DNA of 47,400 bases from the NCBI GenBank assembly GCA_030148775.1, contig JASBST010000067.1:1-47400 (forward strand), given 5' to 3'. Below the pieces are notes generated by a model, which did no database searches, was not told where the DNA came from, and saw only the letters and a program-made list of their open reading frames with translations. Both the position numbers and the translations under genes were made by a program. Of this stretch, positions 2,996 to 28,653 are shown in pieces; within the stretch, counting starts at the first letter, position 1; every line of letters begins with the position of its first letter. This DNA is from Thiogranum sp. GTDB lineage: Bacteria > Pseudomonadota > Gammaproteobacteria > DSM-19610.

Positions 2996-3853
2996 TTAAC
3001 CGGTAAAGGCGTCGCGGGCCGCTTTGGCGTCGCGGAATAGCGCCAGCAGCCGCTCGCCGTCGCCCGCCTCGATTGCCCGCGCCAGGCTCGCCACGTCCTG
3101 CCCGAACCGGTCGATCATGCTGAGTATCGCAGGACCGTTGGCCAGACAGATATCGCGCCACATCACCGGATCGCCGGAGGCTATGCGGGTGAAGTCAGCG
3201 AAGCCGCCGGCGGCATAAGCGAAAATCTCCCGCTGCTCGTCCATGCGCGCCAGGCTTTCGACCAGCGCAAAGGCCAGCACGTGCGGCAGATGGCTAGTCG
3301 CCGCCAGCACTTCGTCGTGGTGCGCCACCGCCATCTCGTTGACCGTCGCACCGGCCATCTCCCACATCTCCCGCACCCGCCGCACCGCCGCCGCGGATGT
3401 TTCCGCCAAGGGCGTCAAAATGACGCGGCGATCCCGGTAAAGCGCGGCGAAGGAGGCCTCCACGCCGCTGCGTTCGGTACCGGCGATCGGGTGTCCCGGC
3501 ACGAACCAGGCGGGCGTCGAACCCACGGCATCGATCAGATCGGCCACCACGCGACCCTTGGCGCTACCGCCGTCGGTCACCACCGCGCCGTCGTCGAGCA
3601 CGGGCGCGATCGCGGCGAACAACGCGCGCATGGCGCCCAGCGGCACCGCGACAAACACCATGTCGGCGCCGCGCACCGCCTTTGCCGCATCGGTCTCGAA
3701 ACGATCGATCACGCCCAGATCGACCGCGCGCTGCAAGTGTGCCGCGTCGCGGCTGCAACCGACAATTTCGCCGACCGCGCTGGCCTGGCGCAGCGCACGT
3801 GCCAGCGAGCCGCCGATCAGCCCCACGCCGATGATACACAGACGCGCGATCAT
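2996..3853 (-). CDS. tyrA: Prephenate dehydrogenase
   Basis: TyrA oxidatively decarboxylates prephenate (or arogenate) for tyrosine synthesis. The start chosen is the ATG at 3853 (MIARLCIIGVGLIGGSL), giving 285 residues. It places the Rossmann motif GVGLIGGS near the N-terminus and creates a 4-base ATGA overlap with the ancestral end of hisC. An upstream start at 3886 would add 11 low-complexity residues. The region around PGHPIAGTERSGVE matches the conserved active-site segment of the family, and the helical C-terminal domain is complete. No chorismate mutase or ACT domain is fused to it. NAD versus NADP preference cannot be told from the sequence. Confidence 0.95.
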   Translation of the reverse strand: MIARLCIIGVGLIGGSLARALRQASAVGEIVGCSRDAAHLQRAVDLGVIDRFETDAAKAVRGADMVFVAVPLGAMRALFAAIAPVLDDGAVVTDGGSAKGRVVADLIDAVGSTPAWFVPGHPIAGTERSGVEASFAALYRDRRVILTPLAETSAAAVRRVREMWEMAGATVNEMAVAHHDEVLAATSHLPHVLAFALVESLARMDEQREIFAYAAGGFADFTRIASGDPVMWRDICLANGPAILSMIDRFGQDVASLARAIEAGDGERLLALFRDAKAARDAFTG

Positions 3854-4968
3854 GCCGCCAGCACCCGGGCCAGCGCCGCCAGACAACGCTCGTTCTCCTG
3901 CGGCAACCCGACACTGATGCGCAGAAAACCGGGCAGGTCATAGTTGGCCACCGGGCGCACGATGACGCATTAGCGCAGCAATGCCGTGTAGACCTCGCCG
4001 GCGTCGCGTCCCGTGTCCACACTGATGAAATTCCCCGCCGAGGGGATGAACACCAGGCCCAACCCGCTCAAACCCTGTTCCAACTGGCGCATACCCTGAC
4101 GATTGATCTCGACGCCCCGCTGCAGATGGTCCGCGTCCTGCAAGGCGGCCGCCGCCGCGGCCTGGGCCAGGCTGTTGACGTTGAAGGGCTGACGCACCCG
4201 ATTGAGTATCCCGGCGAGTTCGGGTTGCGAAACGCCATAACCGACACGCAACCCCGCCAGCCCGTAGGCCTTGGAGAAGGTGCGCGTGACCAGCAGATTG
4301 GGAAACGCGTCGATCCAGGTCAGGGCGTTCGGATAATCCGCGGCGTCCACGTACTCGAAATAGGCCTCGTCGATCACCACCACCACGTGCGCCGGCACCT
4401 GCTCCAGAAAACCCCGCAACTCGGCGGCCGGCGCCCAGGTTCCGGTGGGATTGTTCGGGTTGGCGATGAACACCACCCGCGTGTCCGCTTCGATCGCCGC
4501 CAACATGGCGGCAAGATCGTGCCCATAGCGCGGACCGTTGCTGCCGTCGTGGGCGGGCACCTGTCGGGCGCGCGCGCCGGCGGCCCGCGTGACCAGCGGA
4601 TACACCGCGAAGGCGTGCGCCGAAAACACCGCCGAGCGGTCCGGATTCAGAAAGGCGCGGGCCACCAGCTCCAGCACATCGTTGGAACCGTTGCCCAGGG
4701 TGAGACAGTCGGCCGGCACCTGCAGGTGCGCCGACAAAGCCGCTTTGAGCGCAAACCCGTTGCCGTCGGGATAACGTCCGAGCTGGCCGACTTGTTCGCG
4801 CAGAATCTGTTGCACCCGCGCACTGGGGCCGAGCGGATTCTCGTTGGAAGCCAGCTTGACCGCCTGACGGATACCGAATTCGCGCTCGAGTTCATCGAGC
4901 GGTTTGCCCGGTGCGTAAGGCTGCAGCGCCTGCACGCCATCCACCGCCTGGTCCAGTAACGAACTCAT
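3850..4968 (-). pseudogene. hisC: Histidinol-phosphate/aromatic aminotransferase, interrupted by in-frame TAA
   Basis: A PLP-dependent fold-type I aminotransferase of the HisC family. In this context (pheA-hisC-tyrA) it is likely the second HisC copy, acting on imidazole acetol phosphate and/or aromatic keto acids. ASNENPLGPS, FIANPNNPTGT, VVIDEAYFEY and the PLP-lysine motif TRTFSKAYGLAGLRVGYG are intact. At codon 333 (3970-3972) the frame hits TAA right after YTALLR. It then continues in the same frame as CVIVRPVANYDLPGFLRISVG to a TGA at 3850-3852 that overlaps the tyrA ATG. The usual sequence here is LLR-x-GVIVRPV, so the lesion is a stop plus a Gly to Cys change. The lost tail carries the conserved substrate-carboxylate Arg (LRISVG), so a product ending at 3970 should be inactive. 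Confidence 0.9.
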
Positions 4969-4987
4969 GCGCGCCGACCGCCGCTGC

Positions 4988-6067
4988 TCATAGCTCGCAT
5001 CGCGGAAACGATCCCAGCACCTTCAACGACACCGCCTCGCCGCGCAGCTCGTCGAGCATGGCCGCCACCCTGGCGTCGTCGACATGTCCTTCCACGTCGA
5101 CAAAAAACACGTAATCCCATTTGCTCACCCGCGAGGGGCGCGATTCGATTCGCGTCATACTGACCCCGTGACGCGCAATCGGGCCCAGTAGCGCGTACAG
5201 CGCGCCGGCCTTGTTGTGCACCGTGACCATCAACGACGTCTTGTCCTTGCCGCTTGGACCGGGTTGCTGCGAACCGATCACCAGAAAGCGGGTGGTGTTG
5301 GCGGGGTCGTCCTCGATATTCGTCGCCAGGGTGTTCAGTCCGTACACGGCGGCCGCGGCATCGCTGGCGATGGCCGACGCCCGCGCGTCCGCGCGCGCCA
5401 GGCGCGCCGCTTCGGCGTTGCTGCTCACCGCCACGCGTTCGGCCGTCGGCAGATTCGCATCCAACCATTCGCGACATTGCGCCAGCGACTGTTGATGCGC
5501 GCAGACCCGCTCAATCGAACCGACATCGCTCGCCTGCGACAGCAACTGATGATGGATACGCATTTCCACGTCGCCGCAGATTTTCAGCGGCGAGCGCATG
5601 AACATGTCCAGCGTGTGATTGACAGTGCCTTCGGTCGAGTTTTCCACCGGTACCACGCCGAAATCCGCGCTCCCGGCCTCGACGTCGCGGAAAACCTCGT
5701 CGATCGCGCGCAGCGGGCGCAGCCCCACCGAATGACCGAAATGCTTTTGCGCCGCCTCCTGGGTGTAGGTTCCCTCGGGCCCCAGATAGGCCACCCGCAG
5801 CGGCTGCTCCAGGGCCAGACAGGCCGACATGATCTCGCGAAACAGCCGCACGATTTCGTCGTCCGACAGCGGACCGCGGTTGCGCGCGCGCGCCGCGCGC
5901 AGCACTTCCGCCTCGCGCTCGGGCCGGTAAAACACCTCGTCACCGCGCGCGCGCTTGTGCTCGGCCACCGCCTGCGCACACGCCGCGCGCTCGCTCAGCA
6001 GCGCCTGGATCTGCTCATCCAGGGTATCGATACGCCGGCGCAACTTGTCGAGTTCGTTCTCGCTCAT
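4988..6067 (-). CDS. pheA: Bifunctional chorismate mutase/prephenate dehydratase (P-protein)
   Basis: Converts chorismate to prephenate and then to phenylpyruvate for phenylalanine synthesis. The 359-residue chain has an AroQ chorismate mutase domain at about 1-90 (LRRRIDTLDEQIQALLSER). A prephenate dehydratase domain at about 93-270 starts at YLGPEGTYTQEAA and includes NHTLD and TTRFLVIG. A C-terminal ACT domain carries the ESRPSR phenylalanine-binding motif, which implies feedback inhibition by phenylalanine. It lies 21 bases after serA and 19 bases before hisC on the same strand. Length and domain order are those of the proteobacterial P-protein. Confidence 0.97.
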   Translation of the reverse strand: MSENELDKLRRRIDTLDEQIQALLSERAACAQAVAEHKRARGDEVFYRPEREAEVLRAARARNRGPLSDDEIVRLFREIMSACLALEQPLRVAYLGPEGTYTQEAAQKHFGHSVGLRPLRAIDEVFRDVEAGSADFGVVPVENSTEGTVNHTLDMFMRSPLKICGDVEMRIHHQLLSQASDVGSIERVCAHQQSLAQCREWLDANLPTAERVAVSSNAEAARLARADARASAIASDAAAAVYGLNTLATNIEDDPANTTRFLVIGSQQPGPSGKDKTSLMVTVHNKAGALYALLGPIARHGVSMTRIESRPSRVSKWDYVFFVDVEGHVDDARVAAMLDELRGEAVSLKVLGSFPRCEL

Positions 6068-6088
6068 GGGCTTGCGCGGCCGCCCTCC

Positions 6089-7255
6089 TCAGTCCAGAAC
6101 CCGCACCGACAGAACGCCTTTCACCGCGGCGATCTTATCGATGCATGGCTGGCCGATAACGCTGTCGACGTCGACCAGCGTATAGGCCAGCTGGCCACGC
6201 GATTTATTGATCATGTCGACAATATTGTGGCCGGCATCGGCCAGGGTGGTGGAAATCTGGCCCAACATATTAGGCACATTGGCGTTGGCGACGCACAGGC
6301 GGTAGCCTTCGTAGCGCTTCATGTACACCTTGGGGAAATTCACCGCGTTGCGGATGTTGCCGTTTTCCAGGTAATCGCGCACTTCATCGGCCACCATCAC
6401 CGCGCAGTTCTCCTCGGCTTCCCGGGTAGAGGCGCCCAGGTGCGGCAGCGTGATCACACGCGGATGATTCTTGAGCAGATTACCGGGGAAATCGCAGACG
6501 TAGGCGTACACTTTTCCCTGCGCCATTGCCGCCACCACGGCTTCATCGTCGATGATCCCGTTGCGGGCGAAATTCAGCAGCACCACGTTATCCTTCATGG
6601 TACGCAGCCGCTCGGCATTGATCATATGCCGCGTGCCCTCCACCAACGGCACGTGAAAGGTGACGAAATCCACCTGCGAAAGCAGATCGTCGACGCTGCT
6701 CGCCTGCTCGACGTCGGCGGTCAACTGCCAGGCGCTCTGCACCGTGATGTCCGGGTCGTAACCGATAACCTTCATTCCCAGCGCGTGCGCCGCATTGGCC
6801 ACCAGGACGCCGATCGCGCCAAGTCCGATTACACCCAGCGTACGCCCGGGCAACTCCATCCCCGCGAACTGTTTCTTGCCGGCCTCCACCTGCCGGCTGA
6901 TTTCGGTGTCGTCGCCGCTGAGATTGTGGGCAAACTCCCAGCCCTGCACCAGATTACGCGCCGCCATCAACATGCCGGCCAGCACCAGCTCCTTGACCGC
7001 GTTGGCATTGGCGCCGGGCGCGTTGAATACCGGTACGCCGCGTTGACTCAGCTTGTCCACCGGTATGTTGTTCACACCGGCTCCGGCGCGACCGACCGCC
7101 TTCACCGACGCCGGAATCTCCATGTCGTGCATATTGAACGAACGCAGCAAAATGGCATCGGGGCGGTCGATTGCATCGCCCACGGCGTACTTGTCAGCGG
7201 GCAATCGTTCCAGACCCGCGGTGGAAATATTGTTCAGCGTAAGAATTCGGTACAT
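6089..7255 (-). CDS. serA: D-3-phosphoglycerate dehydrogenase with ACT domain
   Basis: First enzyme of serine synthesis: NAD-dependent oxidation of 3-phosphoglycerate to phosphohydroxypyruvate. The 388 residues contain the nucleotide-binding motif GVIGLGAIGVLVANAA near 147. The catalytic Arg is in LLNFARNGIID, and the Glu/His pair is in LPHLGASTREAEENC. The C-terminal part (about 318-388, from YRLCVANANVPNMLGQI) is an ACT domain, so serine or a related effector probably regulates it. It belongs to the short form lacking the large intervening domain. It sits between serC and pheA, so the first two serine steps and the aromatic genes are in one block. SerC, immediately upstream, uses its product. 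Confidence 0.95.
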   Translation of the reverse strand: MYRILTLNNISTAGLERLPADKYAVGDAIDRPDAILLRSFNMHDMEIPASVKAVGRAGAGVNNIPVDKLSQRGVPVFNAPGANANAVKELVLAGMLMAARNLVQGWEFAHNLSGDDTEISRQVEAGKKQFAGMELPGRTLGVIGLGAIGVLVANAAHALGMKVIGYDPDITVQSAWQLTADVEQASSVDDLLSQVDFVTFHVPLVEGTRHMINAERLRTMKDNVVLLNFARNGIIDDEAVVAAMAQGKVYAYVCDFPGNLLKNHPRVITLPHLGASTREAEENCAVMVADEVRDYLENGNIRNAVNFPKVYMKRYEGYRLCVANANVPNMLGQISTTLADAGHNIVDMINKSRGQLAYTLVDVDSVIGQPCIDKIAAVKGVLSVRVLD

Positions 7256-7333
7256 AACTGTCAGCCTAAAAATGGCCGCGCGGCTCCGAAGCCTTTTGTT
7301 CGACAGGCTTTCCTCGCGCGGGTTTGCGCAGGA

Positions 7334-8413
7334 TCAGCCTCGACGGCGCTCAAAATCCTGCATGAAGTCCACCAATGCCTGCACCCCTTCCTCGGGCATT
7401 GCATTGTAGATGCTCGCGCGCATGCCACCGACCGAACGGTGGCCCTTGAGCGATACCAGCCCGGCCTGGCCGGCTTCATCCAAAAAGGTGCCATCAAGGC
7501 CTGGATCGGCCAGTGTAAAGGGGATATTCATCCAGGAACGGTTGTTGACGTCCACCGGATTGCGATAAAAACCGGAGCCGTCGATGCATTCGTAGAGCGA
7601 GCGCGCCTTGCGGTGGTTGATCAGCGAAATCGCTTCCAGACCGCCCTTTTCCTTGAGCCATTTGAAGACCAGTCCTGCCAGGTACCAGGCATAGGTCGGC
7701 GGCGTGTTGTACATAGAATCGTTGTTCGCGTGAGTGGCATAGTCGAACATCGCCGGCTGACCTTCGAGCGGCCGGCCGATCAGATCCTCGCGCAAGATCA
7801 CCACGGTCAGGCCGGCCGGACCGATGTTTTTCTGCGCGCCGGCGTAGATCACGCCGAAGCGGCTGACATCCACCGGCCGGGACAGGATGGTCGAAGACAT
7901 ATCGGCCACCAGCGGCACATCACCGACATCGGGAATCCAGTGGAACTCCACGCCGCCGATAGTTTCGTTGGGCGTGTAGTGCACATAGGCGGCATCGGGA
8001 TCCAGCCGCCAGCCGGAGCGCTCGGGGATACTGTTGAAACCGTCAGCTTCGGAACTCGCGGCGACATTGACGCGGGCATAGCGCTTGCCTTCGGCGATCG
8101 CTTTCTTGCCCCAGGCACCGGTCCAGATATAGTCGGCAGCGGTTTTTCCGCGCAGCAGATTGATCGGCACCATCGCAAACTGACTGGACGCGCCGCCCTG
8201 CAGAAACAGCACCTTGTAGTCGGCGGGAATTTTCATCAGCTCCCGCAGGTCGGCCTCGGCCTCGGCGGCGATCTGCATGAACTCCTTGCCGCGGTGACTC
8301 ATCTCCATCACCGACATCCCGCTTCCGTGCCAGTCGAGCAGTTCCTCCCGCGCCTGGTCAAGCACCGCCGCCGGCAGTACCGCCGGGCCGGCGCTGAAAT
8401 TGTAAACCTTCAT
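7334..8413 (-). CDS. serC: Phosphoserine/phosphohydroxythreonine aminotransferase
   Basis: PLP enzyme converting 3-phosphohydroxypyruvate and glutamate to phosphoserine; it also serves pyridoxine synthesis in gammaproteobacteria. The 359-residue protein starts [14 protein letters not shown], the hallmark N-terminus. It has [11 protein letters not shown] for PLP-phosphate contact and the Schiff-base lysine in [13 protein letters not shown]. The C-terminal [14 protein letters not shown] segment is complete. It lies 51 bases downstream of gyrA and 78 bases upstream of serA on the same strand, the gyrA-serC order seen in Pseudomonas. Confidence 0.97.
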
Positions 8414-8464
8414 GTGCTACTCACTCCAACGATGTATTCATTGTTTCGGACCGCACTTGGAGGA

Positions 8465-11017
8465 TCACTCCGCCGCGTCCTCGGCGTCCTCGTCCTGTTC
8501 ATCGATCACCCGCTCCACGCCCACCAGGTGCTCCTCATTGTGCAGATTGATCAGGCGCACACCCTGGGTATTACGTCCCATGGAGGAGATTTCGTTGACG
8601 CGGGTACGCACCAGCGTGCCGCCGTTGCTGATCAGCATGATTTCGTCTTCGTCGCGCACCAGCACCGCGCCGACCACCTCGCCATTGCGCTCCGATCCCT
8701 GAATGGAGATCACGCCCTGGCCACCGCGCCCATGCAACGGATAATCCGACATCGGCGTGCGCTTGCCGTAGCCGTTGGCGGTCGCGGTCAGCACGGAGCC
8801 TTCGTCGACTATGATCAATGCGATCACCTTTTGACCGGCCCCCAGACGGATGCCGCGCACGCCGCAGGCGGTACGCCCCATCGGCCGGACATCGGCCTCT
8901 TTGAAACGGATGGCCTTGCCGCCGTTACTGAACAGCATCACGTTCTGATTGCCATCGGTGATCTGCACATTGACCAGATAGTCGTCGTCGCGCAGATCGA
9001 CGGCGATGATACCGTTGCTGCGCGGACGCGAGAAATCCGCCAACGCGGTCTTCTTCACCGTACCCTGGGCCGTGGCCATGAAGACGAACTGGTTTTCGCT
9101 GTAATCGCGCACCGGCAGCACGGCGTTGATACGCTCACCCTCTTCCAGCGGCAACAGGTTGACAATGGGCTTGCCGCGCGCCGTGCGCCCGGCTTGCGGC
9201 AACTGATAGACCTTGAGCCAGTACGCCTTGCCGCGCGAACTGAAACACAAAATGGTGTCATGGGTGCTGGCGATGAACAGCTTGTCGACGAAATCCTCTT
9301 CCTTGACGCGCGTGGCCGCCTTGCCGCGGCCACCGCGGCGCTGGGCGCGGTAATCCGACAAGGGCTGCGACTTGGCATAGCCGGAATGCGACAGCGTCAC
9401 CACCACGTCTTCCTCGGTGATCAGATCCTCCATGGTCAGATCGAGCTGATCCACCAGAATCTCGGTGCGCCGGTTATCGCCGTATTGTTCGCGCACTTCG
9501 ACCAGTTCGTCACGGATGACCTGCATCAGCCGATCCGGGTTGTTGAGAATGTCCAGCAAGTCATCGATACGCTCGATCACCTCGCGGTATTCATCGACAA
9601 TCTTGGTCTGCTCCAGCCCGGTCAGCTGGTGCAGGCGCAGATCAAGTATGGCCTGCGCCTGGGTCTCGGACAGGCGATAGATCTCGCCATGATAGCCATA
9701 GGTTGCATCCAGGCCGTCGGGGCGGGACGCCTCGCTGCCCGAACGCTGCAATAATTCGGTGACAATACCGGGTTGCCATTCACGCCGCACCAACTCCTCG
9801 CGCGCCTCGGCTCGACTCTTGGACGCCTTGATCAACGCGATCACTTCGTCGATATTGGCCAGGGCGACGGCCAGACCTTCCAAAATGTGCGCGCGTTCGC
9901 GTGCCTTGCGCAGGTCGAACACCGTACGCCGGGTGACCACCTCGCGGCGATGGCGCACAAAGGCCTGCAACACTTCCTTGAGGTTGAGTAAACGCGGCTG
10001 ACCGTCGACCAGCGCCACCATATTGATGCCGAACACGCTCTGCAACTGGGTGTGCTGATACAGATTGTTGAGCACCACCTCGGCGACTTCGCCGCGTTTC
10101 AACTCGATCACCATGCGCATGCCGTCCTTGTCGGACTCGTCGCGCAACTGGCTGATACCGTCGATCTTCTTGTCCTTGACCAGTTCGGCGATCTTTTCCA
10201 GCAAACGGGCCTTGTTCACCTGATAGGGCAGTTCGGTGACCACAATCGTCTGGCGCGCGCCCTCCTCGCCCTCGATATGCGAGCGGGCGCGGATATACAC
10301 ACGCCCGCGACCGGTGGCATAGGCTTCGTGGATACCACGCACGCCGTTGATGAACGCGGCGGTGGGGAAATCCGGACCGGGTATGTACTCGATCAACTCC
10401 TTGAGCGAGAGTTCAGGATTGTCGATCAGCGCGATACAGCCATCGACGACCTCGGTGAGGTTGTGCTGCGGAATATTGGTCGCCATACCCACGGCGATGC
10501 CGGCTGATCCATTGACCAGCAGATTGGGAATGCGCGTCGGGAACACCGACGGTTCGGATTCCGACTCGTCATAGTTGGGTACGAAGTCGACGGTTTCGCG
10601 ATCGAGATCCGCCAGCAGCTCGTGGGCGATCCTGGCCATGCGCACTTCGGTGTAGCGCATCGCCGCCGGCGAATCGCCGTCCACCGAACCGAAGTTGCCC
10701 TGCCCGTCGACCAGCATGTAGCGCAGCGAGAACGGCTGCGCCATGCACACGATGGTGTCGTAGACCGCGGTGTCCCCATGTGGATGGTATTTACCGATCA
10801 CGTCACCGACCACGCGGGCGGATTTCTTATAGGGTTTGTTCCAGTCGTTACCAAACTCGCTCATGGCGAAGAGCACGCGGCGATGCACCGGCTTGAGGCC
10901 GTCGCGGACGTCCGGGAGCGCGCGGCCCACGATCACGCTCATGGCGTAATCGAGGTAGGACTGCCGCATTTCGTCTTCCAGGTTGACGGGAACAACTTCT
11001 TTGGCGAAATCAGCCAT
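8465..11017 (-). CDS. gyrA: DNA gyrase subunit A
   Basis: Breakage-reunion subunit of DNA gyrase (A2B2), introducing negative supercoils. The 850-residue chain begins [28 protein letters not shown] in the family manner. The active-site tyrosine is in [10 protein letters not shown]. The quinolone-region segment is [10 protein letters not shown]: threonine at the position of E. coli Ser83 and aspartate at Asp87. Threonine here is normal in pseudomonads and is not by itself a resistance change. The DNA-wrapping C-terminal domain keeps the GyrA box QRRGGRGK, which separates it from ParC, and ends in an acidic tail ([12 protein letters not shown]). It leads the downstream serC-serA-pheA block. Confidence 0.98.
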
Positions 11018-11177
11018 GCTTATCCAATGTCAGGTTCAGTGGAGCACGTAGTTGGCGCCAATTAATCTGGGCGCGTAAAAGCGGCATAATAGCATAGGCC
11101 TGGGGGGTACTGCATTAAGACAAAGGCGGCTGAAATCGGCTCAGATTCGCTCTAAGCGGCATGCTGTCAATTTTCTG

Positions 11178-12218
11178 TCAGCTCATCAGCGCGGCCATTT
11201 TTTCCGTGTCCGGCCGCTGGACCACGCCCCGTTCGGTGACGATGACCTCGATCAGGGCCGCGGGCGTAACGTCGAAAGCGGGGTTCCAGGCGCCGGCGCC
11301 GCTGGCGGCGACCGGGGCGCCGGCCAACTGCAGCACCTCGGCCGCAGAGCGCTGCTCGATGGGAATGTCGGCGCCGCAGGGAGTACGCAGGTCCACGGTC
11401 GACGCCGGTGCGACCACCATGACTTTGATCCCGTAGTGATGCGCAACCACCGCCGCCGTGCAGGTTCCGATCTTGTTGGCGACGTCGCCGTTGGCCGCGA
11501 TGCGGTCGGAGCCGACAATCAGCCATTGCACCCGACCCGACTGCATCAGGTGGGCCACGGCGCCGTCGACCACCAGCTGCACGGGAATGGCGTCGCGCAC
11601 CAGCTCCCAGGCGGTCAAGCGCGCCCCCTGCAACCAGGGGCGGGTCTCGTCGGCGAACACCGCGTTCAGTTTCCCGTGACGCCAGGCGCTGCGGATCACG
11701 CCCAGCGCGGTGCCGTAGCCCCCGGTGGCGAGCGACCCGGTATTGCAATGTGTAAGCACGCCGCTGCCCGCGCCGATCAGCGCCGCCCCCAGTTCCCCCA
11801 TGCGGCGGTTGGCGGCGACATCCTGTTGGTGGATCTCCTGTGCCAGCGCCAGCAGCGCCGCTTCCGGATCGCCTTGCAAACCCCCCAGACTCGCGTTCAC
11901 ATGCTCCAGCGCCCAGGCCAGGTTCACGGCCGTCGGGCGCGCCTGACGCAGCATTTCCAGGTCGCGCCGCAATGGATCACGCCAGTTGCCGGGATCAACA
12001 CGGTAGCGTTCGCGGGCCGCCAGCACCGCGCCATAGGCGGCGGCGATACCGATGGCCGGCGCCCCACGCACCACCATATCGCGTATCGCCGCTGCGACCG
12101 AGCGGCAATCGGGCGGAGTCAACCAGTGTTCCTCGGCGGGCAGACGTCGCTGGTCGAGTAAATGCAGGGCATCGTCGCTCCAATATACGGCGCGCACGGA
12201 ATCGTGTTGATCATCCAT
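11178..12218 (-). CDS. mtnA: S-methyl-5-thioribose-1-phosphate isomerase
   Basis: MtnA isomerises methylthioribose-1-phosphate to methylthioribulose-1-phosphate in methionine salvage. The 346-residue protein shows [15 protein letters not shown], the catalytic-cysteine segment [35 protein letters not shown], and the catalytic-aspartate segment [17 protein letters not shown]. These separate it from eIF-2B alpha-like paralogues. It is divergent from mscS and near the MTA deaminase, which feeds the same salvage route. The 160 bases between it and gyrA may hold a gyrA promoter (TATTAT-like on the minus strand near 11087-11094), but no clear -35 is visible. Confidence 0.95.
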
Positions 12219-12319
12219 GCGCGCGATTGTACCGCAGCGGCGGCCGCTACTTGCAAGCGAAACCGATTCACGTTTTACTCGCAGGCGTTGCCCAATATCC
12301 GCGAGGAGTTCTTTTTATC

Positions 12320-13159: not shown

Positions 13160-13216
13160 GCAGGTCCGCGCCGACTTGTTCCCCCGCGCCCGCGCCGACG
13201 ACTATACTGGCGGACC

Positions 13217-14554: not shown

Positions 14555-14597
14555 AGACGTCCTTGCCGAGCGCCGGCGCCCCCGGTATCTTGTCAGC

Positions 14598-15963: not shown

Positions 15964-15965
15964 AC

Positions 15966-15994: not shown

Positions 15995-16041
15995 ACCCAG
16001 CGCCGACACTGACGGCGGTAACAGCGCTACAGGCGTTTGCT

Positions 16042-17699: not shown

Positions 17700-17734
17700 G
17701 CGCCGCCGCGCGGGATTCGGTATGATGGGACGCC

Positions 17735-19874: not shown

Positions 19875-19923
19875 GGCGGCAGAAACGCTAGAATCGGCTG
19901 GTGTCTCCCAGTCCGGACCCCCG

Positions 19924-20781
19924 ATGTCCCCCGACCAGTACTGCCAGAATAAAACTGCGGCGAGTGGTTCCAGTTTTTATTACAGCTTTCTCTTTCTGCC
20001 CACGGAGCAGCGCCGGGCGATCACCGCGCTGTACGCGTTTTGCCGCGAGGTCGACGATTGCGTGGACAATTGCAGCGACCTGTCCATCGCCACGAACAAA
20101 CTCGACTGGTGGCGCGGCGAAATCGACGCCTGTTTCGCCGAGCGTCCCAGCCACCCGGTGACGCGGGCGCTGCTGCCGTCCCTGGCCCGTTACAATCTGC
20201 CGGCGGAACATTTCCACGAAATCATCGACGGCATGCGCATGGACCTGCACCAGCATCGCTACGCCAACTTCAGCGAACTGGCGCTGTACTGCCACCGTGT
20301 CGCCGGCGTGGTCGGTCTGCTGTCGGCGGAAATCTTCGGCTACCGGCATCGCCAGACGCTGAAATACGCCGAAACCCTGGGGACCGCGATGCAATTGACC
20401 AACATCATCCGCGACGTGCGCGAGGACGCCGAACGCGGCCGTGTCTATCTGCCGGCCGATGAATTACGCGACCATGGCATCGACGCCGAGAGTGTTTTAC
20501 AGGCCGGCGAGGCACTCAAGGGGCTGCTCGCGGTACAGGCACGGCGCGCGCGCGACTATTACCAACGCGCGCTTTCCTACCTGCCGGACGAGGACCGTTA
20601 CCCGCAGAGGGCCGGTCTGATCATGGCGGCAATCTATCAGGCACTGTTGCAGGAGATTGCCGCCGACGGCTACAACGTGGTGCAACGCCGCCTGAGCCTC
20701 ACACCGGTGCGGAAATTATGGATTGCCTGGCGCACCGCGCGGCGCGAACGGCGGCGGCAGCGACGCTACGCCCATGGCTGA
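19924..20781 (+). CDS. hpnD: Presqualene diphosphate synthase HpnD
   Basis: A squalene/phytoene synthase family protein of 285 residues catalysing head-to-head condensation of two farnesyl diphosphates. The signature motifs are YAFCREVDDCVDN and LTNIIRDVREDAERGRVYLP, with YCHRVAGVVGLLSAEIFGY between them. The start MSPDQYCQNKTAASGSSFYY gives the normal family N-terminus. The last 8 bases overlap the start of hpnE. Phytoene synthases look similar, but the neighbouring HpnC and HpnE make squalene the likely product. Confidence 0.94.
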   Translation: MSPDQYCQNKTAASGSSFYYSFLFLPTEQRRAITALYAFCREVDDCVDNCSDLSIATNKLDWWRGEIDACFAERPSHPVTRALLPSLARYNLPAEHFHEIIDGMRMDLHQHRYANFSELALYCHRVAGVVGLLSAEIFGYRHRQTLKYAETLGTAMQLTNIIRDVREDAERGRVYLPADELRDHGIDAESVLQAGEALKGLLAVQARRARDYYQRALSYLPDEDRYPQRAGLIMAAIYQALLQEIAADGYNVVQRRLSLTPVRKLWIAWRTARRERRRQRRYAHG

Positions 20782-22123
20782 GGCGACACCAGCGACGGCA
20801 CCGGTACTGGTGGTGGGTGGCGGTTGGGCGGGCCTGTCGGCGGCATTGACCCTGTGCCGTCACAAGGTGCCGGTGGTACTGGTGGAATCGGCGCGCCAGC
20901 TGGGCGGCCGTGCCCGCAGCGTGCGCAGCGACAAGCGCATTCTGGATAACGGCCAGCACCTGGTGATCGGCGCTTATCAATCGTTGCTGACGCTGATGCA
21001 ACAGATTGGCGTCGACATAGACGCCGTCTTCGAGCGCCTGCCGTTGACGCTGCAGCTCTATCGCAACAATAAACTCAGTCTGAAATTCAAGGCGCCGGTG
21101 CTGCCGGCGCCTTTTCACTTGCTGGGCGCGCTCGGCAGCGCCCGCGGCCTCTCCCCCCGGGAGCGCCTGCAGGCCCTGCGCTTCAGCCGCAACGTCATCC
21201 ATCTGAATGTCACCGCCGCCGAGGACTTCTCCGTGCAGACGCTGCTACAGGATCACGGTCAACCGCCGGGACTGGTCCGCAAGCTCTGGGAACCCTTGTG
21301 CCTGGCCAGTCTGAACACGCCCATTGACCTGGCCTCGGCGCGTCTGTTCACCCGCGTTTTGCAGACATTGTTCGCGGGTTCCCGGCCGGACTCCGACCTG
21401 CTGATTCCCTGCCAGGAGCTCAACGCCCTGTTGCCGCGTCCGGCGTGCGAATTCCTCGAAAGCCGGGGCGCCGGCGTCGAGCTGGGGCAACGCGTCACCG
21501 GTCTGGATATCGACGCGCAAGGTATTCGCGGCGCCATCCTGGGCGAACGCCGCGTTGCGGCCACGCAGGTGATTCTCGCCACGCCGCACAGCGTCACCCG
21601 CCGGCTGCTGTCACGACACCCCGCGCTACAACCGCTGGCGGCGAAACTCGGCGAACTGGGTCATGAACCGATCGCCACGCTCTATCTTCAATACCCAGCC
21701 TAGGTCGCGCTCGATCCGGTCATGGTCGGACTCGAATCGGGACTGGCGCAATGGATATTCGACCGCCGGTGTTGCGGACAACCGGGACTGATGGCGGTCG
21801 TCATCAGCGGCCGCGGCGAACACCAGCGTCTGACGGCAGCGGCGCTGGTCGACGCTGTGATCACCGAATTGAAGACACATTTTCCGCACTGGCCGGCACC
21901 AATGGACAGCCGGCTTATCCGCGACAAACGCGCCACCTTCTGTGCCAAGGTCGGCGTCGATACCTGGCGTCCGCACAACCGCACCCCGATCGCCGGGCTC
22001 TGGCTGGCTGGCGACTATACCGCCACCGATCTGCCGGCGACACTAGAAGGCGCGGTGCAAAGCGGCAACCAGTGCGCCAAGCAGGTCATGCAATCGTTGC
22101 GCGGACCAAACGTGGTAAACTGA
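20774..22123 (+). pseudogene. hpnE: Hydroxysqualene reductase HpnE, interrupted by in-frame TAG
   Basis: An FAD-dependent amine-oxidase/desaturase-type protein that reduces hydroxysqualene to squalene. The dinucleotide motif VLVVGGGWAGLSAALTL is at residues 11-27. The frame runs to codon 310 (21701-21703), where TAG follows ATLYLQYPA. The same frame then continues to 22123 with family-like sequence, including the conserved C-terminal FAD motif GLWLAGDYTATDLPATLEGA. The total would be 449 residues, normal for HpnE. The expected codon at the lesion is probably CAG (LQYPAQV), a single C to T change. Without the tail the FAD site is incomplete and squalene synthesis should fail. It overlaps hpnD by 8 bases and ends 4 bases before the yciK-like gene. 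Confidence 0.9.
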
Positions 22124-22127
22124 ACGG

Positions 22128-22895
22128 ATGTACATTCCTGATACCTGGTCGCCCGCCGACGCCTGCCTGAGCAACCGTACCATCCTCATCACCGGCGCCG
22201 GCGACGGTATCGGCGCGGAGGTCGCCTGTGCCTGCGCCGCGCACGGCGCCACCGTGATCCTGCTGGACAAGGTCGTGCGCAACCTGGAATCGGTCTACGA
22301 CCGCATTGAAGCCGCCGGTGGTCCCCAACCGGCGATCTACCCGTTGGATCTGGAAGGCGCAAGTGAAAAGGACTACTTCGATCTGGCCGCCACCGTCGAC
22401 AAGGAATTCGGCCGACTCGACGGCTTGTTGCACAATGCCGCCATGCTGGGCGCACTGATCCCGCTGGCGCATTTCGAGTCCGAGCTGTGGTGCCGGATCA
22501 TGCAGGTCAATATCAACGCCCCTTTCATGCTTACCCGCGCCTGCCTGGCGTCTCTGATGAACAGCGAAGACGCGTCGATCCTGTTTTGCTCGGACGGCAG
22601 CGGCCGTCACGGCAAAGCCTATTGGGGGGCGTATGCCGCCAGCAAAGCGGCCGGGGAGAATCTCATGCAGACGCTGGCCGACGAACTCGAGACCAATACC
22701 CGGGTGCGCGTCAACAGCATCGATCCGGGGCCGGTGGCCACCAACTTACGCGCCCTGGCCTATCCAGCCGAAAACCCGCAGCGGCGCGCCAAACCGGCGG
22801 ATGTCGTTCTGCCCTTCGTCTATCTGCTGAGCGGCGACAGCCGGGGCATCACAGGAGAACAATTCGAGGTCCAGCGGCCTATTCCATCAAATTAA
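22128..22895 (+). CDS. yciK: Short-chain dehydrogenase/reductase, YciK-like
   Basis: A 255-residue classical SDR. The cofactor motif is LITGAGDGIGAE at residues 20-31, and the NNAG-equivalent is LLHNAAMLG. The catalytic tyrosine and lysine are in YAASKAAGE, and the post-catalytic segment is NSIDPGPVATNLR. The family is conserved beside mupP in Pseudomonas (PA3173), but its physiological substrate is not established. It starts 4 bases after hpnE. Its 3' end overlaps the convergent thioredoxin-like gene by 17 bases. Confidence 0.88.
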   Translation: MYIPDTWSPADACLSNRTILITGAGDGIGAEVACACAAHGATVILLDKVVRNLESVYDRIEAAGGPQPAIYPLDLEGASEKDYFDLAATVDKEFGRLDGLLHNAAMLGALIPLAHFESELWCRIMQVNINAPFMLTRACLASLMNSEDASILFCSDGSGRHGKAYWGAYAASKAAGENLMQTLADELETNTRVRVNSIDPGPVATNLRALAYPAENPQRRAKPADVVLPFVYLLSGDSRGITGEQFEVQRPIPSN

Positions 22896-23910
22896 TGTGC
22901 ACACCCTGCGCTTCCAGAGCCTCCGCGCGCTTCTGGATGTAACGCTGGAAGCTCGGTTGTGAGCGATAGGCGCCGGACAGCACATAGTCCAGCGAGGACT
23001 GGATATGGAACGCCTTCAGATAGGCCTCGGTGCGGAATGCCTCGCTGCCCTGGTCGAACATGATCAGGGTGGGCGCATACTGCACATTCAACGCACGCGA
23101 CCATTCGGCTACGGTGGTTTCCCGGCCCGACGGGGTCTGCACCGGCGTATCGGCCCACATATCGAGCAGTGCGACGTCAAATTGCCGCAGCAATTCGCGA
23201 CTCTCCGGCCGCTTCAGGATGTCCTCGTGCAGCTCGTCGCAGGGGCCACAATCCTTTTGTTCGAACATGACCAGCAGCGGTTTCGTCTGTTCACGCTCGG
23301 CGAAACGGTAGGGGGGCCGCAGGTAGCTTGCGTCCTGGTGCAATTCGCCCTTCGCCGCCACCGGTTCATTAGCGGCCAGAAAGGTCCGAAAATCCATTTC
23401 ACGCTCTTTTTTCTGCCCCACGTAATCCATAACCGCGGAGAATTTATGCGGCGGGTAGTATCCGTTTAACCGTACCACTACGTTGCCCTGTTCGTCGAGA
23501 AACAGCAGCGTCGGTGTGAACATGACCTTGAGACCGGCAGCGAAACTCTTCTCCGAGACCGACTTGCCGGTGAAATCCACCACTTCGCGATCGCCCCACA
23601 TATTGATGGCGATGACGTCGAAAAAGCGCCGCGTTCGTTCGACGATATCGCGCTGACTGAAATTTGTCTCCAGCAGTTTTTTGCAATAGGGACAACCGTC
23701 CTGGTAGAAATACAACATGACGCGCCGACCGTTTTCGGCGGCCTCGGCAACGTCTTCGCGAATATCCAGAAACGATTGTTTGAACCAGGCGGGTTGTTCA
23801 TGGTAGCCCGGGTTGACCATACCGGGGGACAGAACCGCCGTGCCCGGTTCTGCTGAAACAGCTACCGTCGACACCACCAGCAGTAACAGACAAAAAACAT
23901 GACGGGCCAT
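22879..23910 (-). CDS. Exported protein with two thioredoxin-like domains
   Basis: A 343-residue protein with a signal peptide (MARHVFCLLLLVVSTVAVSA, cleavage expected near AEP), so it acts in the periplasm. The first thioredoxin-like domain, about residues 45-180, has CPYC in YFYQDGCPYCKKLLE and the cis-proline region KVMFTPTLLFLD. The second, about 205-320, has CGPC in FEQKDCGPCDELHED and NVQYAPTLIMFD. Both active sites keep two cysteines, so both could do dithiol chemistry. Partners are unknown; SoxW-like or cytochrome-maturation roles are possible. The start at 23910 was chosen because it begins the signal peptide; an open extension to 23979 would precede it. Confidence 0.8.
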   Translation of the reverse strand: MARHVFCLLLLVVSTVAVSAEPGTAVLSPGMVNPGYHEQPAWFKQSFLDIREDVAEAAENGRRVMLYFYQDGCPYCKKLLETNFSQRDIVERTRRFFDVIAINMWGDREVVDFTGKSVSEKSFAAGLKVMFTPTLLFLDEQGNVVVRLNGYYPPHKFSAVMDYVGQKKEREMDFRTFLAANEPVAAKGELHQDASYLRPPYRFAEREQTKPLLVMFEQKDCGPCDELHEDILKRPESRELLRQFDVALLDMWADTPVQTPSGRETTVAEWSRALNVQYAPTLIMFDQGSEAFRTEAYLKAFHIQSSLDYVLSGAYRSQPSFQRYIQKRAEALEAQGVHINLME

Positions 23911-24122
23911 AGCGACGGGCACTCCAAATACAAATGTTAATAATAGGTGAATGGTGTGCGCTCCGCTGCGTGGACGCAAGCACCGGGGGCGGAAAATCGT
24001 CGCCGGCCGGCAGTCATACGGTCGCCGTCATCACGTCATTAGTTTGACGATCTCCGTCTATGTGCGCTTAGACGCATTTATTACTTATTGTTTTTACTAG
24101 CTTTGTAAATTTTTCACAGCTC

Positions 24123-24138
24123 TGGCACAAAATTCGCA
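24123..24138 (+). promoter_or_regulatory. Sigma-54-like -24/-12 element before the GAF-GGDEF gene
   Basis: TGGCACAAAATTCGCA matches the sigma-54 consensus TGGCACG-N4-TTGCW except for A for G at the seventh base and C for T in the -12 half. GG and GC are 12 bases apart, as required. It lies 37 bases before the ATG at 24176, giving a short leader. The 60 bases upstream are AT-rich. No enhancer site was recognised. Confidence 0.45.
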
Positions 24139-24175
24139 TTGATTTTGTTGCAAATTTCATTCTTGGTGCAATGTT

Positions 24176-25087
24176 ATGAACAAACCGCTGCACGACATCC
24201 TACAAGCCGTGGCCGAAACGCCGGCCATCCGTGGCCCGGCGCGGCAGGAAGTGGCGGCCTACCAGACGCTGGAGATGGTCAGGTGTTTGCAGACCAGCCT
24301 GGACCCCACCAGGCTGATGGAATTGTTCAGCCAGGAGGTCGGCCATCTGGTGCCCCACCAGGGTATCCGCTACCGCAACGACGATCTCGAGCTGGAGGTC
24401 AAGCTGGGCACACAGTCACGCCATAGCTGCTCCTATAAGCTGCATATCGGTGACGAACCGCTGGGCAAACTGTCGTTCCGGCGCAGCGAGAAATTCAGCG
24501 AACGGGACACTGAAGTTCTCGAACGACTGCTGTGCAATTTGCTGTATCCGCTGCGCAATGCCCTGCTTTATCAGGATGCGCTGCAGTTGGCGCAAAAGGA
24601 CCCCCTGACCGGTGTCAGCAATCGCGCGGCACTCGACGAAATGCTGCGCCGCGAACTCAGTCATGCACGGCGGCAACAGGCCGATTGCGCGATGCTGGTT
24701 CTGGATATCGATCATTTCAAGGCCATTAACGACCGCTATGGCCATATTATCGGCGACTGCGCGCTCAAGGCGATCGCGCAAAAAGCCGACGCCTGCAAGC
24801 GCGACGGCGACTTGCTGTTTCGTTACGGTGGCGAGGAGTTTATCGTACTGATGCGCGACACGGACAGGGACGGTGCGTTGCTGCTGGCCGAACGCATCCG
24901 CAGCCATATCGCCGGGAACCCGTGCCGCTGCTCCGGAGCCGAGCTTGCCATGACGGTGAGCATCGGTGTCAGCATGCTGGCCGACAGCGACACCCCCGAA
25001 TCACTGTTCGCACGCGCCGATCAGGCGCTGTACCGGGCGAAGGACAACGGCCGCAACCGGGTCTGCGTGATCGACCCACAGGCTTGA
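24176..25087 (+). CDS. GAF-GGDEF diguanylate cyclase
   Basis: Makes cyclic di-GMP from two GTP. In the 303-residue protein, residues about 25-135 form a GAF-like sensor region without membrane helices. The GGDEF domain from about 140 starts DPLTGVSNRAALDEML, carries the active-site loop RYGGEEFIVLM, and ends ADQALYRAKDNGRN. RDGD sits five residues before GGEEF, the correct place for an RxxD inhibitory site, so product inhibition is expected. The ATG at 24176 has no obvious Shine-Dalgarno sequence. It is convergent with the FMN reductase gene, with 13 bases between them. Confidence 0.93.
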   Translation: MNKPLHDILQAVAETPAIRGPARQEVAAYQTLEMVRCLQTSLDPTRLMELFSQEVGHLVPHQGIRYRNDDLELEVKLGTQSRHSCSYKLHIGDEPLGKLSFRRSEKFSERDTEVLERLLCNLLYPLRNALLYQDALQLAQKDPLTGVSNRAALDEMLRRELSHARRQQADCAMLVLDIDHFKAINDRYGHIIGDCALKAIAQKADACKRDGDLLFRYGGEEFIVLMRDTDRDGALLLAERIRSHIAGNPCRCSGAELAMTVSIGVSMLADSDTPESLFARADQALYRAKDNGRNRVCVIDPQA

Positions 25088-25100
25088 CCGTACGGGCGGC

Positions 25101-25715
25101 TCACATACCGTTTTTAAACATCGTGGTTTCGGTCGCCCCGCTGGCGCGCACCTGGCGCAGCGCCAGGGCATATTCCTTCAGAATGCTCAACGCATACGCG
25201 AAACGGGCGCGGAAATACTGATCGGCCTCGGGGTTGTTGTCCGCTTCACGCTCGTTGAGAACGCTTTCGACATTGCGCACGATGACGTGTTCGGGAATGT
25301 AACAAAGGCGGTTGTTCTTATAGCTGCTCATGCGTAACTCGGCCACCGGGTAGGCGCCCCCGTCGGCGGACGACACCGTGACAATCAGCGCGGGCTTGTG
25401 TCCCACCTCCTGCCTTCCACACAAGAGAAAAAAATTCTTCAACCCGGCGGGCACCTGGCCATGCCACTCGGGGGCTACGACGATGAGCGCATCGCTCGAC
25501 TTCAGCGCTTGTGAGATCGGCTGCATGCGATCCCGCCATGCCTCGGCGCCTTCCCATATGCTTTCATCCCATAACGGCAAGGGATTGTTCGCCAGCGTGA
25601 ACAACCAGGTTTCCTCGCACAGCTTCGTTTCTTCGAGCGTGCGCTGAAGATAGCGCGCGACCTTCTCGCTCTGGGAGTTTTCGCGATGACTACCGCTGAT
25701 AATGCTGAATTTCAT
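25101..25715 (-). CDS. NADPH-dependent FMN reductase family protein
   Basis: A flavodoxin-like NAD(P)H:FMN reductase of 204 residues. The FMN-phosphate loop is ISGSHRENSQSEKVARYL at the N-terminus, and VAPEWHGQVPAGLKNFF and VTVSSADGGAYPVAELR form the flavin and dimer contacts of the family. Possible roles are supply of reduced flavin, or quinone or azo reduction; the sequence does not decide. It has a modest ribosome site (GGAAACGAG). It is a single gene between two diguanylate cyclase genes. Confidence 0.85.
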   Translation of the reverse strand: MKFSIISGSHRENSQSEKVARYLQRTLEETKLCEETWLFTLANNPLPLWDESIWEGAEAWRDRMQPISQALKSSDALIVVAPEWHGQVPAGLKNFFLLCGRQEVGHKPALIVTVSSADGGAYPVAELRMSSYKNNRLCYIPEHVIVRNVESVLNEREADNNPEADQYFRARFAYALSILKEYALALRQVRASGATETTMFKNGM

Positions 25716-25845
25716 ATCTCGTTTCCGTCCCGGCTGAGTCCAACTTGAAAATCACATGGTAACTGCATCCTGCCGCCGGACTCCAGCCCATGGACAAAAC
25801 CCCCGCGGCGTTCCGGTGTAGCCCGCCGATCCGATTCGGAGGAAT

Positions 25846-26886
25846 TTATTGGCCGGGAAAATTCTTGACCTGGTTGCGTCCGCTCTGTTTGGCCCGATAC
25901 AGCGCCTTGTCGGCTCTGTCCAGCACATCCGCCGCGCTATCACCGTCGCGCAGATAGTCATAGCCGATACTGACGGTGACACTTCCCAACGGCTGGCCGG
26001 TGTCGGTGCGTTTGAGTTGACTTGCTTCGACCTGGCGGCGGACGGGCTCCGCCACATGTTCGACGCCGTCGCGCGCGGCCGTGTCCACGATTACCGCAAA
26101 TTCATCCCCACCAAAGCGGGCCACCACGTCCTTGCCTGTGAAATTCTTGCGCAACACCGAAGCGACAAACTGCAGGATCTTGTCGCCGATCTGATGACCG
26201 TGGCGGTCATTGATCGTTTTGAAATGATCGATGTCGATCATCATCAAACAGATGGCCTGCATTTGTCGCAAGCTGGTTTCGAGCGACTCCGCCAGCTTGT
26301 CGTCGAAAGCGCGGCAGTTGGCCAGCCCGGTCAACGGGTCCTTGACGGCCTCCTGGCGCACCCGCTCGAGTTCGTTGCGCAGCAGATCGATTTCGCTCGC
26401 GCGCTCCTGCAGGGCGCCGGCGATTTGACTGTTGGAGGCAGCCACCGCGTGGGTGTCCTCGACAATCGCCTGCACCAGCTTGCGCAAATCGCGCAGGTCC
26501 TCGCAGCTTTCCAGGCGTTTACTGCAACTGCCCAACACAGCGCTATAGCGTGTGAGTTCCAGACCGGCGTCGACGATAATCTGCACGATATCGGCCAACA
26601 GGCTGCGCACTTCGCCCTCGACCCGCTGCAGCGCGCTCAGATCCCCCCCCGCGACATGGCGCTTGTAGAGTGTACAGGCCTGTTCGTAATCATAAGCCAC
26701 CTCACCCGATTCGATTCTGGCCAGGGCCTGGACCAGCTCCGGCGTGCGCTCGAGACGGTATTCGTACCACAAGGCGTAGTTGATCGGTGTCACGGGTATG
26801 CCGAGGCGGGTCATGAGCGGAAACACCAGCCGGGCAATCTCCTGGGCGCGCGCGCTGTCGCAGGGGTACTCCATCATCGGTTCCAT
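25846..26886 (-). CDS. GGDEF diguanylate cyclase with N-terminal helical domain
   Basis: A 346-residue cytoplasmic diguanylate cyclase. Residues 1-175 are helical, with PINYALWYEYRLERTPEL near the start and a coiled-coil linker (ALQERASEIDLLRNELERVRQ split over two heptads). The catalytic domain begins DPLTGLANCRAFDDKL and has the loop RFGGDEFAVIV. The inhibitory site is lost (TGKD instead of RxxD), unlike the neighbouring cyclase at 24176. The ATG at 26886 was preferred over the GTG at 26889 because of GAGG just upstream. It follows the thioredoxin gene by 29 bases and is likely co-transcribed with it. Confidence 0.92.
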   Translation of the reverse strand: MEPMMEYPCDSARAQEIARLVFPLMTRLGIPVTPINYALWYEYRLERTPELVQALARIESGEVAYDYEQACTLYKRHVAGGDLSALQRVEGEVRSLLADIVQIIVDAGLELTRYSAVLGSCSKRLESCEDLRDLRKLVQAIVEDTHAVAASNSQIAGALQERASEIDLLRNELERVRQEAVKDPLTGLANCRAFDDKLAESLETSLRQMQAICLMMIDIDHFKTINDRHGHQIGDKILQFVASVLRKNFTGKDVVARFGGDEFAVIVDTAARDGVEHVAEPVRRQVEASQLKRTDTGQPLGSVTVSIGYDYLRDGDSAADVLDRADKALYRAKQSGRNQVKNFPGQ

Positions 26887-26915
26887 CACCTCGCCAATGA
26901 AAAGGGAAACAGGTA

Positions 26916-27266
26916 TCAGGGCGTATAGTCGTCGTCCAACTGCTTGCGCAAAAACTCCACAATCCCGGCTTTAGACCTGGCTCCGCTGAAACGCCCCCGC
27001 TCTTCGCGGCGATAAAACAGAATAACGGTGGGAAAGCCCCGCAGCCGATAACGTCCGGCCAGTTTCATATTCTCGCCCTGGTCGACCTCCACCTTGACGA
27101 TACGTAAACGTCCCTGCCACTGCTCCGCCAATTGGTCCAGGATCGGCGCGATCACGAGGCAGGGCGCGCACCACCCGGCCCAGAAGTCCACCAGCACCGG
27201 TAGCGCATCGGAGGCCGTCATCACCTCCGCCTCGAAACCCTCCAAACTGGTATGCACCACAGCCAT
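26916..27266 (-). CDS. Thioredoxin
   Basis: A single-domain cytoplasmic thioredoxin of 116 residues. The active site is FWAGWCAPCLVIAPIL, with WCAPC instead of the commoner WCGPC; both are known in thioredoxins. The cis-proline segment RGFPTVILFYR and the VKVEVDQGENMKLAGRY region complete the fold. There is no signal peptide. The gene lies upstream of a diguanylate cyclase on the same strand and is divergent from the porin gene, sharing the 259-base intergenic region with its Pho box. Confidence 0.92.
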   Translation of the reverse strand: MAVVHTSLEGFEAEVMTASDALPVLVDFWAGWCAPCLVIAPILDQLAEQWQGRLRIVKVEVDQGENMKLAGRYRLRGFPTVILFYRREERGRFSGARSKAGIVEFLRKQLDDDYTP

Positions 27267-27444
27267 ATAAATTTAACGTAAAGCCAGCAGGTGAGTACCG
27301 CGGCACGAAATGCCTGGTAGGACAGCCATGCGGGAATTGTTATTGCTATTTGCTGCTTAGATATTAGTAGTTTAGATTTTACTTATTCTAGGCCGCATGG
27401 GCAAGCCGCGTCTGCGCCCAGCCCGTAACAAAAACTTAACCCTA

Positions 27445-27462
27445 TCGTCATATTATAGTCAT
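27445..27462 (+). promoter_or_regulatory. Pho box upstream of the porin
   Basis: TCGTCAT-ATTA-TAGTCAT is two 7-bp direct repeats separated by an AT-rich 4-mer, the exact layout of a PhoB site (consensus CTGTCAT-N4-CTGTCAC). It lies 63 bases before the porin ATG. Together with the downstream OprO/OprP-type porin, this supports induction by phosphate starvation. The site also lies upstream of the divergent thioredoxin gene. Confidence 0.7.
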
Positions 27463-27525
27463 ACATCCGCAATACGCTGCACGCTCTTTTGATCAAACTC
27501 ATTAAAACATTAGGAGAGCGTGTCA

Positions 27526-28653
27526 ATGCCAAACATCGCTATTCGCCGGGCCGTGGCCGGCGTGTTGGGCCTCGCAACTTTAGTACCGGCTCATGCCGGC
27601 GTCACTGTCTATGAAAATGGCGAAAAATCGGTGAAATTGGGTGGACGCATCCAGTTGCAGTACCTGCGCACCGACCCCGACAGCGGTCCGGCGACCGATG
27701 AGATGTTTTTCCGCCGCCTGCGCCCCTATATCGAAGGGACACTGCACAAAGACTGGAAGGGAAAATTCCAGATGGACTTCGGCAAAGCCGAGGACGACAA
27801 CGAAGTCGCGGTCAAGGATGCCTACATGCAGTATTCCGGTTTCGAGGGGATGAAGGTCAAACTGGGCAACGCCAATTTTCCATTTTCCCGCGAATTCCTG
27901 ACCTCGTCCAAATATCAGCAGTTCGTTGAACGCACATTCGTCGGCGACCACAACTACGGCACGCCGGACCGCAACCTGGGTCTGCACTTGAGCGGACATA
28001 ACGGCAGCAAGCAATTAACCTGGGGCGCCTCGGTGGCACAGGCTTCCATCGACCCTAATGCCAACCGCGTAGACTTCGACACGCCGGTGAACGCCAACTC
28101 CGATTTCAACGAAGGTTGGATATACGGCGGTCGCGTCGATTACCATCCGTTTGGAAAACTGAAGTTTTCACAGGGGGATTTTTCCGGCGACACCAAGGCG
28201 ACCATCGGCGTGGCCGCGTTCCAGTGGTCTAACGACGGTGACAATGAAGTCAATCCCGCCAGTCTGGATAAAGTGACCGGTTATGAAGTCAGTGGCGCTT
28301 TGCGCAGTCACGGTTTTTCTGTCGACGCCGAATACAATCTGTTCCAGGTGGATACGACCGACGGCACCTTCACCGGCGGTCTTTACCAGAACGGCGAAAC
28401 CGAATTGACCAACTGGTCGGTGGAAGGCGGATATATGCTGATCGCGGACCAGTTGGAACTGGTGGCCGGTTACTCCGAGCAGGACGCCGACAACTACGCC
28501 GACGTCTGGGGTCGCACCACCTTCGGCGCCAATTGATTTATTCACAAACACGACGTCAAACTGCAGGCGACCTATCAGATCAACAGCAGCGAATCCGGGG
28601 TCAAGGGCAACGACGCCAACGAGCTGTTCGTACAGGCCCAGTACGTCTTCTAG
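27526..28653 (+). pseudogene. Phosphate-selective porin O/P family protein, interrupted by in-frame TGA
   Basis: An outer-membrane beta-barrel of the OprO/OprP family that passes phosphate or polyphosphate anions. The ATG at 27526 follows AGGAGAG and starts a signal peptide ending VPAHA. The mature N-terminus VTVYENGEKSVKLGGRIQL and the RRLRPYIEGTLHKDWKGKF strand pair are typical. At codon 337 (28534-28536) TGA follows TTFGAN. The frame then continues FIHKHDVKLQATYQ to the proper porin end ELFVQAQYVF and a TAG at 28651. A barrel needs its last strand and C-terminal Phe, so the shorter product should not assemble. TGG (GANWF) is the likely ancestral codon. The final TAG overlaps the nasA stop (CTAG). 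Confidence 0.88.

Follow-up and report, generated by a model that had tools for sequence, protein, structure and literature searches.

In-frame stop codons in hisC, hpnE and a porin gene of a draft bacterial genome very likely reflect base-substitution errors in the consensus

We examined hisC, hpnE and the gene for a phosphate-selective porin O/P, each of which carries one in-frame stop codon in the window, i.e., the whole 47,400-base stretch that makes up contig C16 (JASBST010000067.1) of a 3.1 Mb draft genome in 111 contigs with 86.7% completeness (hereafter G000). As the best named matches of HisC are those of uncultured Thiogranum and Thiohalobacter metagenome genomes (70% each), the host is probably a sulfur-oxidizing gammaproteobacterium, and the make-up of the assembly points to one of the metagenome type. 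G005, a genome of the same genus, shows collinearity with the window over five blocks, at a DNA identity of 76-83%. The features considered here are as follows:

3850..4968, minus strand: hisC (histidinol-phosphate transaminase), with one in-frame stop, after which the frame picks up again and reaches the overlap with the next gene
3967..3969, minus strand: the next hisC codon after the stop, TGC (cysteine); the homologues have glycine in 96 of 97 cases and alanine in one of 97
3970..3972, minus strand: internal stop TAA of hisC, codon 333; no stop in the 97 covering homologues
20774..22123, plus strand: hpnE (hydroxysqualene dehydroxylase), with one in-frame stop; its true end is probably farther on, overlapping the gene that we take to be yciK
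21701..21703, plus strand: internal stop TAG of hpnE, codon 310; no stop in the 14 covering homologues
22121..22123, plus strand: TGA at the previously assigned end of hpnE; the closest relatives stop six codons later
27520..28653, plus strand: phosphate-selective porin O/P, with one in-frame stop near the C-terminus and a G005 alignment at 95% over 377 residues
28534..28536, plus strand: internal stop TGA of the porin gene; no stop in seven of seven homologues

An earlier sequence-only reading of the window had reported these TAA, TAG and TGA codons, with the same frame resuming behind each of them and without a frameshift; the codons are indeed present, and the G005 proteins align without gaps across all three stops (hisC, 371 residues at 85% identity; hpnE, 454 residues at 80%; porin, 377 residues at 95%). 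The comparison with close relatives that it had proposed returned sense codons at the sites, and no stop was found in any homologue covering them (97 of 99 for hisC, 14 of 15 for hpnE and all seven for the porin). Single Pfam matches cross the stop in hisC (Aminotran_1_2, residues 36-364) and hpnE (PF01593, residues 19-439); the Porin_O_P match ends ahead of the porin stop, and support across it comes from the G005 alignment. The piece of hisC ahead of its stop exceeds the NCBIfam hisC cut-off by itself, and the corresponding piece of hpnE has NCBIfam HpnE as its top match at 274.6 bits, slightly below the whole-protein cut-off of 283.05. Judged by the aligned homologues, the TGC that adjoins the hisC stop is a second private change. 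The end of hpnE had been placed at the 4-base gap to yciK, but it probably lies later: in G005, G003 and G001, the three relatives closest to it, the frame passes the point of the TGA at 22121-22123 and ends six codons downstream. In the window this TGA is followed by a similar tail, TDVHS and then a stop, and is thus a probable fourth premature stop. It was left out of the 21 accepted stops considered below. An Rfam scan of the window at gathering scores gave no match.

A count of similar breaks elsewhere, likewise proposed in that reading, was run over about 27% of the genome and gave a total of 21 accepted internal stops in ~849 kb. Comparison of G005 proteins with G000 DNA accounted for 11 of these among 223 called genes on four contigs (37 on C16, 92 on C108, 37 on C39 and 57 on C85), in genes with 80-95% identity to G005. 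Acceptance was by eye, with no preset rule, where both flanks matched a plausible gene in one frame outside its start or end region. The accepted stops affect three of the 37 genes on C16, one of the 92 on C108 (a small gene that belongs to no clear family), three of the 37 on C39 (pheT, a phospholipase D-like gene and uvrB) and four of the 57 on C85 (an RND efflux permease, rnfC, rnfD and a small gene). No frameshift was accepted in the 223 genes. The reverse test, with G000 proteins on G005 DNA, yielded no accepted stop among 230 called genes (39, 95, 37 and 59 on the respective contigs); its flags lay in start regions, within the final 25 columns or in two ambiguous multi-frame matches (C39 2438_3739 and C85 30019_31182), and one flag, at column 504 of 529, marks the place where the G005 gene simply ends. 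The densest stretch that we saw is G000:C85:1-20000, where the stops of the RND efflux permease, rnfC and rnfD fall within 20 kb.

Several kinds of candidates were set aside in these comparisons. Flags within about 30 columns of a start as called, and those a few codons from the end, were treated in both genomes as start-site miscalls or terminal variation, and multi-frame matches of G000 sequence on C108 and C39, considered as frameshifts, trace to a miscalled start or to paralogues. Two G005 open reading frames on C16 (36195_37400 and 43813_45534, in joined-stretch coordinates) have out-of-frame or antisense flagged parts. On C108, 42702_43451 (65% identity) is probably non-genic and the stops of 100036_101712 lie upstream of its likely start; C39 30591_31046 (70% identity) is likewise probably non-genic. 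On C85, 51694_52833 was not counted at 68% identity, nor was the first stop in 24743_26773, which is upstream of rnfC, and codon 22 of 14380_15366 was set aside as a doubtful case.

These counts bear on the possibility that the stops are real nonsense mutations in the sampled cells or in a part of the population, as might follow from strain mixture, recent mutation load or hypermutation, with the assembler having chosen the mutant base. We regard this as unlikely. The hisC, hpnE and porin stops by themselves could be tolerable in a population, and apart from the stops hisC, pheT and uvrB show good conservation, as genes with very recent lesions would. However, real gene loss normally involves indels to a considerable extent, and the lack of a frameshift among the 11 lesions has a probability of 0.02 at an assumed indel share of 30%; moreover, G005 came through the same treatment without any accepted stop.

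The second approach was a scan with a codon model of 797,504 bases of G000 and 246,629 bases of G005. It produced 54 candidates in G000, of which 19 were accepted: nine known from the G005 comparison and ten new ones, in purD, a GGDEF gene, an Elm1-family gene, a molybdopterin oxidoreductase, purC, a HAD hydrolase, prfB, a CxxCxxCC-domain gene, ccoN and an msrP-like gene. Twelve scan candidates were checked with Pfam; a single Pfam match crosses the stop in nine of the ten new genes, the exception being the msrP-like gene, whose stop falls past the end of the domain. The other 35 candidates were dropped as natural gene borders, by eye and from presumed gene starts, seven of them (three on C2, two on C53, one on C77 and one on C108) after an inspection that did not involve Pfam. 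Within the scanned stretches, the scan recovered nine of the ten stops of the G005 comparison and missed that of hpnE. None of its 11 candidates in G005 was accepted, all being judged natural borders by eye. The names hisC, HpnE, pheT, uvrB, prfB, purC, purD, ccoN and RND permease derive from NCBIfam matches of pieces that do not cross a stop, and rnfC and rnfD from Pfam families; msrP and mtnC, like yciK, are presumptive names.

At 21 stops per ~849 kb, 1.2 are expected per 47.4 kb, and the probability of three or more is 0.11; hence, the stops of the window are not an unusual local cluster, contrary to the earlier suggestion that three lesions in ~25 kb are unusual. Its companion claim, that there is no other decay, agrees with the window as seen, but lesions of the same type are present elsewhere in the genome. 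Extrapolation to the whole genome gives ~77 such stops, a rough figure in that the scan is not fully sensitive and did not cover the last 51 kb of C85.

The affected genes include several that are essential or belong to the core, namely pheT, prfB, purC, purD, uvrB and ccoN. Searched separately, the pieces on either side of the stop match adjoining parts of one NCBIfam model in pheT (1-520 and 529-798), uvrB (1-183 and 186-658) and prfB (16-205 and 207-353); purC, purD and ccoN received their NCBIfam names from one piece each. Loss of pheT or prfB is lethal, and no living cell could lose such a set of genes at once. This also tells against real nonsense mutations, since by established knowledge a free-living cell is not viable without pheT and prfB and would be crippled by the loss of purC, purD and ccoN as well. 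The internal TAG of prfB, the RF2 gene, is at about position 72,742 of contig C76 (minus strand) and occupies the place of a serine in both aligned RF2 chains. The residues directly before it contain the stop-reading motif of RF2, and farther upstream a different frame closes with an in-frame TGA, as would be expected from the programmed frameshift of prfB. The RF1 gene, prfA, is present without an internal stop. No stop-reading anticodon is seen among the 26 tRNA genes found, an incomplete set that lacks several amino acids. At seven sites, none of the covering homologues has a stop (97 for hisC, 14 for hpnE, seven for the porin, 19 for pheT, 28 for uvrB, six for rnfC and seven for rnfD).

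The accepted stops comprise 13 TAG, six TAA and two TGA codons (n=21). Random single-base substitution of the codons of this genome predicts fractions of 0.55, 0.30 and 0.15 for TAG, TAA and TGA, respectively, which fits (p = 0.73), whereas the natural terminators, at 0.20, 0.22 and 0.59, do not fit the internal stops (p = 9e-7). The latter fractions come from 473 called terminators (277 TGA, 102 TAA and 94 TAG), among which there may be a few internal stops, and terminator use is similar to that of G005. The prevalence of TAG (13 of 21) could be taken as a sign that this codon has been reassigned to an amino acid; yet all three stops occur internally, TAG ends 94 of the 473 called genes, its share among the internal stops is that predicted by random substitution, the genome has an RF1 gene that is free of internal stops and no matching tRNA is among the 26 found in the incomplete set. 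We accordingly consider a change of the genetic code to be exceedingly improbable.

General readthrough, through weak termination or broad suppressors, is a somewhat less remote but still very improbable explanation. It would accommodate all three kinds of stops inside otherwise well-conserved genes as well as the internal TAG of the RF2 gene itself, and readthrough of in-frame stops has been proposed in bacteria on the basis of species-shared stops (PMC7918605). Against it, no relative shares a stop at any of the seven tested sites (0/7), the incomplete set of 26 tRNAs has no stop anticodon, the RF1 gene lacks an internal stop and terminators are used as in G005; further, the prfB stop replaces a serine of both aligned RF2 chains, and the mix of stop types is what random substitution gives. 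A sulfur-oxidizer-like gammaproteobacterium whose leaky termination lets it bear dozens of private nonsense codons, of all three kinds and in its own RF2 gene too, is very improbable. Were the stops real, a free-living bacterium would have to tolerate stop codons broadly, a remarkable property.

The kind and load of substitutions beyond the stops were also examined. About 3% of random coding substitutions make a stop, i.e., about 33 changes per stop, and if the stops are random errors, the implied load is 2.1-2.7 changes per kb for C16, C39 and C85 and 0.3 for C108. Private changes polarized by G003 (26 genes and 9,754 codons on C16; 31 genes and 10,123 codons on C85) number 1332 at codon positions 1 and 2 in G000 and 1217 in G005, so that G000 has 115 ± 50 more, compared with 93 predicted from the stops; at codon position 3 there is no excess (2590 in G000 and 2599 in G005). 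Across 4,853 amino-acid columns on C16 that are identical in at least two outgroups, G000 has 79 private changes and G005 has 50 (one-sided p = 0.007). Cysteine gains, considered as an error marker, are present on C16 (25 in G000 versus 17 in G005), C39 (16 versus 9) and C85 (9 versus 2, polarized) and absent on C108 (15 versus 23). Private G to T changes at positions 1 and 2 are more frequent in G000 than in G005 (48 versus 21, p = 0.0008), an excess that would also be expected of a repair defect and to that extent suits real mutation. An oxidation-type (G to T) cause was considered and set aside, as position 3 leans likewise (96 versus 72) and the direct contrast gives p = 0.08, which is just a hint.

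Several of these observations weigh against ascribing the stops to errors. The excess at positions 1 and 2 is just 2.3 sigma, and the drift of G000 toward A+T at position 3 might account for a part of it. Private changes at near-invariant columns are scarce in hisC (0/78), pheT (1/309) and uvrB (1/329), where a hand calculation at 2.65 errors per kb expects about four, a shortfall that is not significant. The stop sites are slightly more variable than average (mean percentile 0.63, n=7, with prfB excluded; not significant), and this lean to variable positions is in the direction expected from selection on real sequences. Stops are much scarcer on C108 than on the other three contigs (heterogeneity p = 0.11, not significant), and the scan candidates were mostly weighed by eye.

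We nevertheless consider it very likely that the stops are base-substitution errors in the draft consensus rather than features of the living organism. They hit many genes, including essential ones, are private at the tested sites and come without accepted frameshifts, and their types and, loosely, the implied load match random one-step substitution. Among nonsense mutations, sequence errors and readthrough, the three options raised at the outset, the evidence favors sequence errors. Miscalled bases would land roughly at random, at about 2-3 per kb on three contigs and about 0.3 on the fourth, with the stop-making fraction being visible and the remainder showing up as private missense or silent changes. 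Their source would be technical, such as low coverage, low quality or a damaged template, rather than real mutation. True pseudogenes combine stops with frameshifts and deletions and are under relaxed selection; here, no frameshift was accepted in the 223 called genes, and near-invariant columns changed 0, 1 and 1 times in hisC, pheT and uvrB. The picture resembles that of spurious pseudogenes, with stops scattered without regard to gene function and absent from relatives at the seven tested sites. The relatives carry the genes intact, and the organism very probably does too; this draft genome should not be taken to show that histidine or hopanoid synthesis or the uptake of phosphate has been lost.

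Apart from the stops, the stretch G000:C53:40001-44000 has no match in G005 and just scattered short matches in three other genomes (G010, G003 and G002). It could be a strain-specific region or a misplaced contig, either being possible.

Two published cases allow comparison. In-frame stops proposed to be read through (Belinky et al. 2021, PMC7918605) resemble ours in being single in-frame stops in otherwise conserved genes that involve all three codons; they differ in that only stops at the same place in at least two genomes were kept, so as to exclude sequencing errors, whereas here none is shared with a relative at the seven tested sites. The study of spurious pseudogenes by Cooley and Wright (2024, PMC11017572) reports that low-quality reads chiefly add internal stops rather than frameshifts, that the internal-stop count follows consensus quality and that many internal stops indicate a poor assembly. 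Our case is alike in featuring internal stops and not frameshifts, in extending to core genes and in being unmatched in relatives; it differs in that theirs rests on reassembly from real and simulated reads, and ours is seen in the consensus of a 111-contig draft. On that account, stops arising from consensus errors are a known kind of artefact of bacterial assemblies, and the present case shows that internal stops can be used as a gauge of the error load of an assembly where the reads are missing.

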